Translations under genes and position numbers: made by a program
Shown here: piece after piece, positions 2,902-7,841 of the stretch
Numbering within the stretch: position 1 is the first letter of the stretch
Layout of the letters: each line of letters begins with the position of its first letter
Notes under the pieces: model-generated
Database searches by the model: none
What the model saw: the letters and a program-made list of their open reading frames with translations, nothing else
What the model was told of the DNA's origin: nothing
NCBI GenBank assembly: GCA_027858355.1
Contig: JAQICW010000162.1
Coordinates: 1 to 7,847, forward strand
Direction of reading: 5' to 3'
Origin: Desulfobacula sp.
Lineage (GTDB): Bacteria > Desulfobacterota > Desulfobacteria > Desulfobacterales > Desulfobacteraceae
DNA length: 7,847 bases

Positions 2902-2914
2902 GGAATTTGCTTTC

Positions 2915-3562
2915 CTAATCCAGCAGCGTTATTTTTTCTGCCATTTCATATATTTCCTGAAAATAAGCATAACCATCGGCTTCTTTATTTTCCAGCACTC
3001 TGAAGAAAACCACAGCCACAGAGCTTACTGGATCAGTCAGCATTAACTGGCCGCCATAACCGCTGTGAGCAAGCCACCTGCCGTTGGTCATCATCTGATT
3101 GCTGTAATAAATTTTTCCATTTTTGCCCAGCATGGGAGGCCCCGGATTTTTGCGGGTCCGCTCAAAATAGGCAGGGCTTCCAAATGTTTTACCGTTAACA
3201 CCCAGGCCCTGGCGTACAAATATCTGTCCATAACTGGCCAGATTCCTGGTTGTCATAGCACCGCCACCGCTGACAAGGGGTGTGCCCTCACGGTCTGTAG
3301 AGATATAAAATGTTCCCTCAATGCTGGCAGTCTCGATAATATCGATAAGCATGCTGCGCAGCGGGCGGCCTGAGACACGTTCTGCAATCCATCCCAAAAG
3401 ATCGGTGTTGGGAGATCTGTATTCTGCTTCACCCGTTGTGTTGGTAACATCCGGGCTCTTTAGCGACTGAATAAACCCGCGGCAGGAGATCTCTTTTTCA
3501 CCTTCGGGCGGCATTCGCCATCCCATTGCAATTTCCTGACGTCCATAACTTTCGCAACAAAT
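2915..3562 (-). pseudogene. C-terminal remnant of a beta-lactamase-fold serine hydrolase
   Basis: The open frame (from an ATG at 3526, 203 aa) matches the second half of class C beta-lactamase / 6-aminohexanoate-dimer-hydrolase-like serine hydrolases. It has YRSPNTDLLGW (residues 36-46, the Tyr-x-x-x-Asn second motif), SGGGAMTTRNLASYGQ (86-101, the usual GG-hinge and helix), and HSGYGGQ (154-160, the KTG-equivalent third motif). Homology continues upstream of that ATG (ESYGRQEIAMGW) to about 3553, then the frame ends at a TAA (3563-3565). The N-terminal part with the catalytic Ser-x-x-Lys is absent; the family normally has about 380-430 residues. The fragment cannot be an active hydrolase of this type. 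It precedes the amidohydrolase by 13 bp in the same direction, so the intact ancestor probably worked with it, perhaps in hydrolysing amides. The flanking 3566-3690 is AT-rich and unlike coding sequence, as expected at a deletion joint. Confidence 0.82.
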
Positions 3563-3690
3563 TTACGAATCATACAATAACTGTCCTAAGCTAAAGTGGT
3601 TAAAATTTTACTACAAAAAAACTGCTTTTCTTCTATATATATCTTGATTTATTTTAAAATCATCAAAGATGAAGCGCTTATTTTTATAAA

Positions 3691-3756
3691 TCATTCATAA
3701 TTTTCTACGAGGAAAATTCCTTCATTGATCGAACTGACAAATAATTTTTCACACAT
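3691..3756 (-). CDS. 21-codon ORF behind a ribosome site, possible start of a lost gene
   Basis: An AAAGGAG (3760-3766 on the minus strand) lies just after the acyl-CoA dehydrogenase stop. Three bases later an ATG opens MCEKLFVSSINEGIFLVENYE and a stop. Alternatively a GTG four bases further on sits at a better 7-base spacing but opens only 15 codons. The shape KLFVSSINEGIFLVE resembles the first strands of enoyl-CoA hydratase/isomerase proteins, which often follow acyl-CoA dehydrogenases; that match is weak and is my inference. The sequence after it, to 3566, is AT-rich and shows no continuation in any frame. It is most likely the surviving 5' end of the next operon gene, cut by the same deletion that removed the N-terminus of the serine hydrolase. 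Confidence 0.3.
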   Translation of the reverse strand: MCEKLFVSSINEGIFLVENYE

Positions 3757-3775
3757 CTTCTCCTTTTGTTGAGGC

Positions 3776-4108
3776 TTATTTTAATATTTCATAGGCAATG
3801 CGGTTTAAACAGACCTGGGTAGTGCCGCCACCCATGGACCATCCTCTGACATCTCTGTAATACCGCTCCACTTCATATTCTGTTGAATATCCATAGGCCC
3901 CGTGCAATTGAATGGCCTGGTCACAGACCCATATGGCCATTTCATTTGCATTCTTTTTGGCCATGGAAGCCTCTTTGGCAATCATCTTCCCCTTTTTTTC
4001 CTTGAACAGGGCATCATAAACCAACAGGCGGGCGGATTGTATTTTGATGGCCATTTCAGCCAGGGTCCAGCTAATCCCCTGGAACTGGCCAATGGGTTTT
4101 CCAAACTG
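3776..4108 (-). pseudogene. C-terminal fragment of the acyl-CoA dehydrogenase
   Basis: From the CAG codon at 4108 the frame reads QFGKPIGQFQGISWTLAEMA, then IKIQSARLLVYDALFKEKKG, a helix, QLHGAYGYSTEYEVERYYRD and SMGGGTTQVCLNRIAYEILK, the complete last helical domain of the family (110 aa). The first in-frame ATG is at 4054, inside a conserved helix and without a good ribosome site, so independent translation of a full domain is doubtful. Codons directly upstream of 4109 (HRISCSLS) come from the inserted element. Confidence 0.85.
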
Positions 4109-4115
4109 AATACGT
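4109..4115 (+). repeat. target-site duplication, left copy (AATACGT)
   Basis: This perfect 7-mer abuts the left inverted repeat and is identical to 4576-4582. It is the minus-strand ACGTATT that encodes part of Arg-Ile in CKERIQFGK of the interrupted dehydrogenase. Confidence 0.88.
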
Positions 4116-4140
4116 GAGAGCGAGCACGATATTCTATGGG
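4116..4140 (+). repeat. left terminal inverted repeat of the element
   Basis: 25 bp beginning GAGAGCGAGCAC and ending TATGGG; it pairs with 4551-4575 at 19 of 25 positions. Its inner part is the first copy of the CACGATA-N4-ATGG motif. Confidence 0.85.
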
Positions 4141-4242
4141 CATTTTTTCACGATAAATTATGGGATTTTGATGATCGTCCCTTATCTACTTTGAAAAATA
4201 TAGACGTCCGAAAACTTCACATAGGATCACGATAATTCATGG
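4125..4242 (+). repeat. three direct copies of CACGATA-N4-ATGG at the left end of the element
   Basis: Copies start at 4125 (spacer TTCT), 4149 (AATT) and 4228 (ATTC). All keep CACGATA, a 4-bp spacer and ATGG. The first two are 24 bp apart and also share the following G. A variant inverted copy lies in the right terminal repeat. Iterated subterminal motifs of this kind are usually transposase-binding sites; that role is inferred here. Confidence 0.65.
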
Positions 4243-4533
4243 TTTTAATCAGTCTAATTTGAGGCCGAATTTGACGGTTTAAATCAGCATACTGATATGA
4301 ATGGAAATATGTTCTTTATGACACACCTCCCCCCTGGGGTTGATGGGAAAGAAACCATAGATTTCAGCAGTCCATGGTTTATATCTAATCCACTGATATC
4401 AAAGCATATATATTTGGAAGCTGCCAATTATCCATGGGGTATGTTGAATTTTTTAAGCATTATTTATTATGCAAAATGTTGATATTCACTTAAATTTTGG
4501 GATGATAGGCCGAGCTTCCCTGATTTACCTTGA

Positions 4534-5385
4534 TCAGAAATCAACGATTTCCCATAAATTACTGTGCTCACGCTCAATACGTTCTTTGCAATATTTCAAA
4601 GTCCGTTCATAGGCACCCTGAGCAAAGCCTACGCAAAAAGAAGAATTCCCGCACCGCTCGGAATTAAACTCCTTCATAATTTCTTTGAATCCCTTGCCTC
4701 CTGCCGGAATCAGGAGATTTTCCTTTGGAATTTTTACATCCTTAAAAATAATCTCATCAAGACTTGAGCAATTGCGGCCCATCATTTTTTCAGACCTGCC
4801 GATGGAAACACCGGGAGAGTCGCTGTCGACAATGAACATGGCAATTCCCTTGGACGGTTTCTCAGGAACAATTTTTGTTTTGGCAAGGACAATAAGAACC
4901 TTTGCAATTTTTGCATTGGAAATAAATATTTTTTCTCCGTTGAGCAGATAATGGTTGTCTTTGTCTTCGGCAAAACTTGCCAGGTTCCCGGCATCTGACC
5001 CGGCATTGGCCTCTGTCTGGCAGTATGCACCGATTTTTTTACCCGAAGCCATGTCAGGCAGGTATCTTTTTTTCTGGTCCTCATTGCCCAGGTGTGCAAT
5101 GGATCTGCAACAGGCAGAAACATGGGTCAATGGAATTGAAACTCCCACCCGGCCCATTTCTTCGCACAAAATAGCCAGATCAATCATGGACCCTCCCTCT
5201 CCGCCGTACTCTTCCGGTACCAAAAGGCCCATAAATCCCATTTCCGCAATCTTTTTATAATATGAGTCAGGATATTTTCCTTCTTTTTCCCAGGTTCTGA
5301 CATGCGGTGCAATCTCCCTGTTTGCAAATCGTCTGACTTCATCCCGAAACATTTTATTCTCAGTACTCAATAAACTGTCTATCAT
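4534..5385 (-). CDS. expressed-as-is N-terminal fragment of the acyl-CoA dehydrogenase (283 aa)
   Basis: This is what the upstream half would make now: residues 1-270 of the dehydrogenase plus 13 foreign residues (EREHSNLWEIVDF) encoded by the inserted element, ending in a TGA at 4534-4536. It retains the N-terminal helical domain and the beta-barrel but lacks most of the C-terminal four-helix domain, which carries flavin contacts and the tetramer interface. An active enzyme is not expected unless it pairs with the separate C-terminal piece, which has no convincing ribosome site of its own. Confidence 0.8.
   Translation of the reverse strand: MIDSLLSTENKMFRDEVRRFANREIAPHVRTWEKEGKYPDSYYKKIAEMGFMGLLVPEEYGGEGGSMIDLAILCEEMGRVGVSIPLTHVSACCRSIAHLGNEDQKKRYLPDMASGKKIGAYCQTEANAGSDAGNLASFAEDKDNHYLLNGEKIFISNAKIAKVLIVLAKTKIVPEKPSKGIAMFIVDSDSPGVSIGRSEKMMGRNCSSLDEIIFKDVKIPKENLLIPAGGKGFKEIMKEFNSERCGNSSFCVGFAQGAYERTLKYCKERIEREHSNLWEIVDF
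4551..4575 (-). repeat. right terminal inverted repeat of the element
   Basis: Read on the minus strand it begins GAGCGTGAGCAC and ends TATGGG, mirroring the left end. It holds a variant motif copy, CACAGTA-N4-ATGG. It also supplies the foreign codons and lies just before the premature stop of the dehydrogenase N-terminal fragment. Confidence 0.85.
4576..4582 (+). repeat. target-site duplication, right copy (AATACGT)
   Basis: Second copy of the 7-mer, directly after the right inverted repeat. The bases beyond the two copies differ, so the duplication is 7 bp, not longer. Confidence 0.88.
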
Positions 5386-7340: not shown

Positions 7341-7841
7341 ATGAAGAATGTTTTTATCGTCGGATCAGGGATAATGGGAAGCGGCATTGCCCAGGTTTGC
7401 AGACAGTCAGGCTATAGGGTTTCGCTCATGGATATTAATAAAAAAGCACTTGACTCTGCAATAAAAAATATAGAATGGTCTTTAAATAAATTAGAAGAAA
7501 AAAATGTGATAACGGAAAGTGCCGGGGATATCATGGGAAGACTTGCGACAGCAGACAGTCTCGAAAAAGCAGGGGATGCAGATATTGTAATAGAAGCAGC
7601 GCTTGAGGATTTAAAAATCAAACATAATATTTTTAAAGACCTTGAACAGATTTGCGGGCCGGATACAATTTTTGGAACAAACACATCTTCCATACCCATT
7701 ACCGAAATTGCCTCAATTCTTAAAACCCCCGAGAGGTTTGCAGGTATCCATTTTTTCAACCCGGTTCACCGGATGAAACTTGTGGAAATTATAAAAGGCC
7801 TTTCCACTACGAACGATATTGTACAAAAAAAAATAAAATAA
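7341..7841 (+). CDS. 3-hydroxyacyl-CoA dehydrogenase, N-terminal NAD domain only (shortened)
   Basis: NAD-dependent oxidation of a 3-hydroxyacyl-CoA to the 3-oxoacyl-CoA (3-hydroxybutyryl-CoA dehydrogenase-like). The frame carries the Rossmann GSGIMG (8-13), Asp31 at the end of strand two, GTNTSSIPI with the active-site Ser (116/117), His137 in GIHFFNPV and Glu149 in KLVEII. A strong AGGAG lies eight bases before the ATG. The protein stops at 166 residues after TTNDIVQKKIK, just past a nine-A run, with a second in-frame stop six bases on. Family members have about 280-310 residues, and the helical C-terminal domain with the catalytic Asn and dimer contacts is absent. It is either truncated, or frameshifted in the A run with its remainder beyond the window. 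NPVHRM replaces the usual NPVPxM. It is divergent from mttB across a shared 282-bp control region. Confidence 0.85.
   Translation: MKNVFIVGSGIMGSGIAQVCRQSGYRVSLMDINKKALDSAIKNIEWSLNKLEEKNVITESAGDIMGRLATADSLEKAGDADIVIEAALEDLKIKHNIFKDLEQICGPDTIFGTNTSSIPITEIASILKTPERFAGIHFFNPVHRMKLVEIIKGLSTTNDIVQKKIK

Follow-up and report, generated by a model that had tools for sequence, protein, structure and literature searches.

A probable non-autonomous Tn6049-like element interrupting an acyl-CoA dehydrogenase gene of a Desulfobacula-like bacterium

An acyl-CoA dehydrogenase gene in the 7,847-nt stretch of DNA analysed here (the window) is split by a short insert. Sequence comparison makes it very probable that the insert is a non-autonomous element, derived by internal deletion from a Tn6049-like transposon, that entered the gene in a Desulfobacula-like bacterium; the interruption is probably recent. 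This reading draws on the paired sites at both family-type ends, the 5-bp duplication of the target, what is left of a parental primase gene, uninterrupted relatives of the gene and full-length parents of the element in related genomes. Feature coordinates are collected in Table 1; genomes and loci of the comparison are given as G and L numbers.

The interrupted gene and its relatives

Two open reading frames on the minus strand, 4534-5385 and 3776-4054, are pieces of one acyl-CoA dehydrogenase by Pfam: the first covers the N-terminal domain, the middle domain and C-terminal-domain positions 1-42 of 150, and the second covers positions 60-149 of the C-terminal domain. The upstream part runs for 283 codons to a stop, its final codons being supplied by element sequence, and the stop of the interrupted frame falls within the C-terminal domain. 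Flanks joined with a single repeat copy give 380 codons and a stop, and CKERIQFGKPIG spans the joint. The preliminary description had proposed that the two frames are one gene, and that excising the element plus one repeat copy leaves it unbroken at 380 codons with this sequence at the joint; the division of the Pfam domains, the joined frame and the unbroken relatives bear out both proposals.

In the genome collection, 71 loci encode relatives of the dehydrogenase. Alignment of the joined translation with homologues, as had been suggested, gave full-length matches: L001 (an uncultured proteobacterium) and L002 (Candidatus Desulfobacula maris) are 93% identical across all 380 residues, and the remaining loci 27-41%. 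Among the matches listed (120 of 7,993 scored), every homologue covers 99-100% of the joined query; 119 of these 120 are 376-395 aa long and one is 401 aa.

The window is collinear with L001 and L002 across the genes for the MttB-family methyltransferase, the acyl-CoA dehydrogenase and the amidohydrolase. Within the dehydrogenase the alignment breaks off at 4108 and restarts at 4582, with six bases between in each relative. This kinship points to a Desulfobacula-like sulfate reducer, probably a marine one, as the host. The empty allele that was to be sought in related strains is therefore present in both, as found by genome comparison, and homologues carrying the insert, which would have told against an insertion, were not seen. 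Both relatives read GACCCTT where the window has AATACGT (Arg-Val against Arg-Ile, translated by hand), so the exact pre-insertion allele is not among the alleles seen. The joined dehydrogenase gene shows a synonymous divergence of 0.79-0.82, and dN/dS is about 0.05 in each of the two parts, which argues that the gene was under selection until recently.

Two other accounts of the insert bear on this comparison. That it is a functional intervening sequence (an intron, an intein or a programmed recombination segment) is suggested by its position within a gene and by nothing else, and we give this next to no credence: the 467 bases in question do not divide into whole codons, the frame entering from upstream meets a stop within the element, no Rfam family reaches its gathering score in the window, and the insert is absent from the relatives and has transposon ends. 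We also consider an assembly chimera or contig-joining error very improbable; the junctions were judged from the assembled contig alone, but the direct repeat, the inverted ends of a known family and the exact in-frame joint are unlike random joining.

Elsewhere in the window, an 866-bp stretch (2910-3775) holding an N-terminally truncated serine-hydrolase gene (PF00144, ORF 2915-3526) is absent from L001 and L002, where only a short distance separates the dehydrogenase stop from the beginning of the amidohydrolase gene; either another insertion in the window or deletion from the relatives would account for the difference. Positions 1-908 contain an M28-type peptidase gene remnant in pieces, of which only 555-908 scores in Pfam and which looks pseudogene-like by eye. 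A 3-hydroxyacyl-CoA dehydrogenase ORF (7341-7841) stops after 166 aa, near the window end and behind a run of A, from either a frameshift or an assembly edge.

Table 1. Coordinates of the element, the interrupted gene and the sites within the element (window positions)
Feature	Position	Strand	Evidence
Probable non-autonomous Tn6049-like element, TGAG...CTCA, 462 bp	4115..4576	.	End comparison of repeated family copies; 25-base end matches against shuffles
Target duplication ATACG, left copy	4110..4114	.	Flush-duplication comparison, family ends
Target duplication ATACG, right copy	4577..4581	.	Flush-duplication comparison, family ends
5' part of split acyl-CoA dehydrogenase gene	4577..5385	-	Frame enters element, stop at 4534; ORFs, Pfam, joined flanks
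3' part of split acyl-CoA dehydrogenase gene	3776..4114	-	ORFs, Pfam, joined flanks
Terminal left-end site GAGCACGATATTCTATGG	4122..4139	+	16.3 bits; 0/500 shuffles
Second left-end site	4146..4163	+	11.1 bits; 8/500 shuffles; spacing as in full-length left ends (by eye)
Inner left-end-like site GATCACGATAATTCATGG	4225..4242	+	28.4 bits; 0/500 shuffles; similar site in G038 miniature
Terminal right-end site	4552..4569	-	11.1 bits; 8/500 shuffles
Second right-end site GATCAAGGTAAATCAGGG	4518..4535	-	12.0 bits; 6/500 shuffles
Remnant of parental RepB-type primase gene	4303..4350	- (gene sense)	Primase-gene DNA of G060, G042, G047 and G078 matches at 90-95% over 38-48 bp
Synonymously constrained segment within primase remnant	4319..4347	-	Codon-identity comparisons

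Ends of the element and its full-length parents

The heptamer AATACGT occurs at 4109-4115 and again at 4576-4582, and just inside it the 25-bp imperfect inverted ends described earlier (4116-4140 and 4551-4575) are present, with 19 of 25 positions matching. Of the 1,620 pairs of identical 7-mers separated by 100-2000 bases in the window, no other is flanked by inverted ends as good as these; the runner-up matches at 15/25, and the best match in 20 mononucleotide shuffles of the window is 16/25.

Exact boundaries come from repeated family copies. Near-identical copies at different places share a stretch running from TGAG to CTCA in G062 (4,384 columns, 99.93% identity) and in G064 (3,654 columns, 99.73%); in other copy pairs, from G064 and G043, identity extends a few bases into flanks that match by chance. 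Since family copies begin with TGAG and end with CTCA, the window element occupies 4115-4576 and its duplication is ATACG. Thus both heptamer copies are there as first reported, but the duplication is 5 bp with one chance-matching base on each side, and the length of 460 bp given originally becomes 462 bp. The empty-site reconstruction stands, as either boundary leads to the same inferred site with 467 bases removed.

Nineteen family copies with both flanks, the window element included, were compared for a flush duplication: it is 4-6 bp in ten, 3 bp in three and missing in six, and these last count against the derivative reading. In a control of 342 mismatched left-right flank pairs, 4 bases matched in four pairs and 3 bases in seven. 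The count excludes L124, L161 and L163, whose flanks lie at the ends of short contigs (0, 2 and 0 bases match by eye), L127 and L128 (flank missing), L149 (masked) and loci with one end. In L114 (200-4581) and L194 (767-4207), two of the six copies, a 5-base flank repeat is seen by eye set back from one end by 2 and 4 bases, respectively.

The left end of the element matches that of L117/L120 at 22/25 and its right end that of L150 at 21/25, where the best scores over all positions in 1000 shuffles are 18 and 19; compared with L127 and Tn6049, the right end scores only 18/25, within the shuffle range. By its closest family ends (22/25, 21/25) the element thus has the terminal inverted repeats of the Tn6049 family. 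A weight matrix built from 15 left ends of other copies, with 500 shuffles as control, places five end sites in the element: two near the left end (bases 8 and 32), two near the right end (bases 8 and 42, counted from that end) and an inner one at base 111. Second sites lie at similar distances in full-length family ends, as seen by eye. The inner site fits the matrix better than the terminal left site does (28.4 against 16.3 bits) and may be an older left end nested inside the element.

The element has a G+C content of 36%. The first reading found no transposase inside, and that holds: the sole ORF of at least 60 aa lying wholly within (61 aa, 4297-4482) matches no Pfam family. Genes for a Cys-rich protein, an rve transposase and an AAA ATPase, which the parents have, are missing from the element, making it a derivative rather than an autonomous family member. 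Its interior is partly related DNA, 4303-4350 matching a gene of the parent transposons.

The 460-bp sequence was used as a query against 193 relatives of G002, 26 of which match at E <= 0.01, many by short chance matches. Left-end matches occur in G038 (bases 1-150 at 78%, adjoining bases 433-460), G016 and, at three places, G010. Nine genomes (G007, G011, G038, G042, G047, G060, G062, G078 and G132) match internally, around bases 188-241, at E <= 1e-5; these matches correspond to the antisense strand of a stretch of RepB-type primase gene. Complete copies with the primase encode, in order, a Cys-rich protein lacking a Pfam match, an rve transposase, an AAA ATPase and the primase, within 3.8-4.4 kb bounded by TGAG...CTCA; overall, the transposons with such ends in the relatives measure 3.4-4.4 kb. 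The primase gene is carried by L127, L126, L124, L122, L120, L114, L113 and L195, among others, and is missing from L148, L150, L189-L191, L192-L194, L161 and L163. The lack of any parent with these ends had been named as grounds for abandoning the element; instead, full-length transposons in relatives have such ends, the two-site layout and the internal segment.

An independent left-end pattern was found in 11 of 291 genomes of the order, a reversed control pattern in none, and its matches in G139, G234 and G351 led to additional full-length copies. The transposase matches at E <= 1e-40 in 20 of the 193 relatives; the nearest ones, G001 and G002, have no transposase match at that threshold and no element, which also counts against the derivative reading. 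Two short, isolated matches to element bases 329-354 and 9-30 in G001/G002 have no ends and were not taken as real copies; 25-bp matches in G076 (no ends nearby) and G075 (protein search only) were dropped as well. Exact end patterns gave no match in the genome-contig or viral-contig collections, nor did a distant blastn search with the element against plasmids.

In the stretches examined, some left ends appeared without a right end: L116 (4351) and L118 (4465), both in G010, L145 (69, G027), L147 (1576, G243), L112 (3707) and L125 (2971). The three left ends of G010, L117 being the third, are 98.7-100% identical over 77-137 bp and then diverge. L125 was considered as an IS66-type parent and rejected, the match being a primase remnant beside transposase-like sequence called IS66-like by eye. 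In the copy L110 (G060, 2985-8878) the transposase match is split, with about 2.1 kb between its two parts, and immediately beyond the left end there are ORFs resembling reverse transcriptases, judged by eye to be of group II intron type.

On Cupriavidus plasmids, the L127 transposase has its Tn6049 counterpart as a match, with 49.5% identity across 96% of the L127 protein, and the core proteins of parent and Tn6049 correspond in the same order: Cys-rich protein 40% (145 aa), rve transposase 49% (459 aa) and AAA ATPase 51% (267 aa). Tn6049, from Cupriavidus metallidurans CH34 and also on the Pseudomonas plasmid pHS87a, has inverted ends of the type TGTGCGTGAGCAC, against TGAGCGTGAGCAC in the window element. 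Both have a short duplication of variable length, 5, 6, 4 and 6 bases in four Tn6049 copies and 5 bp here; Tn6049 is a 3.5-kb transposon with genes, whereas the window element has none. Many of the sulfate-reducer parents carry the RepB-type primase gene where Tn6049 has a 90-aa ORF of unknown function. The description of Tn6049 accompanied that of the CH34 genome. The accessible text of the sources puts its copy number in that strain at 12, each of 3.5 kb (PMC2864759), gives 12-bp ends with a 4-bp repeat (PMC4739549) and, still in 2018, states that the transposition module "could not be categorized" (PMC6210171).

The parent transposases share the rve catalytic domain with the IS481 and IS21 families, and NCBI names the Tn6049 protein 'IS481 family transposase', but the gene set of those families differs from that of the parents. 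Membership was rejected for IS481 (parent transposases at 108.8 and 96.7 bits against an NCBIfam cut-off of 224) and for IS21 (56.3 and 36.1 bits against 160). A Tn7/Tn5053 type was likewise rejected, TniB scoring 12.7 bits against a cut-off of 22.4 for L126 and not being listed for L127; Pfam found no TniQ match among eight parent proteins. A search of solved structures gave only weak matches for the transposase, mainly of retroviral-integrase type, and none for the parent ATPase.

As we picture the insertion, a full-length copy would provide transposase, ATPase and Cys-rich protein in trans; these would bind the repeated end sites and insert the element at a cut staggered by about 5 bases (4-6 in the family). 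The miniature would contribute its ends, and perhaps also the primase-gene segment. Landing in the C-terminal domain of the dehydrogenase would presumably inactivate the enzyme and might affect the downstream amidohydrolase gene; for the host, the consequence would be ordinary gene disruption.

Other miniatures and the classification of the element

A 192-bp miniature in G038, the single match of its kind in 193 genomes, shares with the window element bases 1-150 at 78% identity and not the host locus, so the compact left region with its inner site predates both insertions. A second miniature lineage is found in G047 (L123, cut by a contig end) and G056 (521 bp with both ends and an apparent nested insert). 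It has a different left-end type, and from base 82 the same primase block of about 45 bp; no other match to 14 parent loci was found in this miniature. The nested insert in G056 (L210, about 1916750-1916860 of the contig) is some 130 bp long with inverted ends ACGACAGCGACACTT / AAGTGTCGCTGT.

These miniatures bear on the alternative that a full-length transposon inserted in the dehydrogenase gene and then lost its interior in place, leaving a single dead deletion derivative rather than a mobile miniature. A parental gene remnant is still inside the element, no miniature was found twice within one genome (one each in G038, G047 and G056), and other partial copies exist, such as one in G042 (2,714 bp, fused genes) and the left ends without a right end found, all of which suits deletion in place. 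We nevertheless hold it to be unlikely, given that the left region shared with G038 lies at another locus and predates both insertions, that another miniature lineage occurs in two genomes, and that two sites are kept at both ends.

Miniature inverted-repeat elements (MITEs) of bacterial insertion sequences are short and A+T-rich, with inverted ends, a target duplication and no evident coding capacity, and in the strict sense several copies per genome are expected. The window element resembles them in each of the former respects, being 462 bp long and lacking a transposase gene; full-length, autonomous elements are found in relatives, the host DNA examined being the window. MITE parents are insertion sequences of one or two genes, whereas the parent here is a transposon of three or four. 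TIMEs, as the accessible part of the literature describes them, are also non-autonomous miniatures of a multi-gene transposon and not of a simple insertion sequence, but their parents belong to the Tn3 family and that of the window element is Tn6049-like. The MITE-like element of the preliminary description is accordingly supported for an insert whose host is known from the window alone: one gene is interrupted by what appears to be a non-autonomous element with parents in relatives, with the amendments that the duplication is 5 and not 7 bp, the length 462 and not 460 bp, and the kinship to Tn6049.

The kind of element is thus known from the miniature Tn3 derivatives, to the extent that their literature is accessible. 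The openly accessible literature naming Tn6049 yielded no description of miniature derivatives, and the openly accessible literature at large, most subscription papers being outside its scope, nothing relevant on a transposon with a RepB-type primase; no account of the Tn6049-like parent family, of the primase branch or of the retained segment turned up there either. Among the matches listed for MITEs in these genera, none was relevant by title. The comparison fixes the ends, the repeated end sites, the variable 4-6-bp duplication and the three-gene core of the Tn6049 family, and adds to it a primase-gene branch and miniature derivatives, which would show what DNA suffices for movement.

The retained primase-gene segment

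RepB-type primases, that of RSF1010 for one, initiate at specific sites. In the primase-carrying branch of Tn6049-like transposons, the primase-gene segment of about 28 nt kept in the element (CCCATCAACCCC[A/G]GGGGGGAGTGTGTCA, coding strand) might be a cis-acting site, for example one at which the transposon's own primase initiates, and miniatures might keep it since it aids their copying or movement; codon comparisons and its retention in a second miniature lineage raise this possibility, to which we attach a low but not negligible probability. If it were true, these DDE transposons would possess a replication-initiation module of their own, and the miniatures would be parasites keeping only the ends and the site. 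The retention of one synonymously constrained primase stretch in two lineages offers a direct test for a hidden cis-acting site.

A strict pattern of the segment occurs at 10 places in nine of the 193 relatives, all in primase genes or their remnants, and its reversed control at none. A RepB gene on a Desulfosarcina ovata plasmid (42%) was set aside, as it lies among plasmid transfer genes and not in such a transposon.

That the segment was retained by coincidence, its codon conservation coming from protein constraint, codon bias or recent exchange between elements and not from any function at the DNA level, seems to us fairly probable. Eleven of 14 primase genes carry the segment and most of these are closely related, so that codon counts are not independent; the primase-less members in G064, G043, G021 and G017 have no match to the motif, the G038 miniature lacks the segment, and no folded structure beyond that of shuffles was detected in it (z 0.64 to 1.11). 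Against coincidence stands the codon identity. In eight intact primase genes same-residue codon identity averages 0.57 over the gene but is 0.94 in the 9-column window PHQP-RGGV, and in the 14 genes the 8-codon motif has 0.85 (301/355) against 0.46 overall (5,426/11,821), the six top-scoring of 242 windows all overlapping it. This larger set contains three diverged genes without the motif and six added genes, taken in irrespective of whether they sit in such transposons. The codon comparisons leave out L110 and L111 (internal stops) and L115, L121 and L128 (broken reading). The same direction is indicated by the two miniature lineages, which have different left ends and both keep the block with no parental match beside it.
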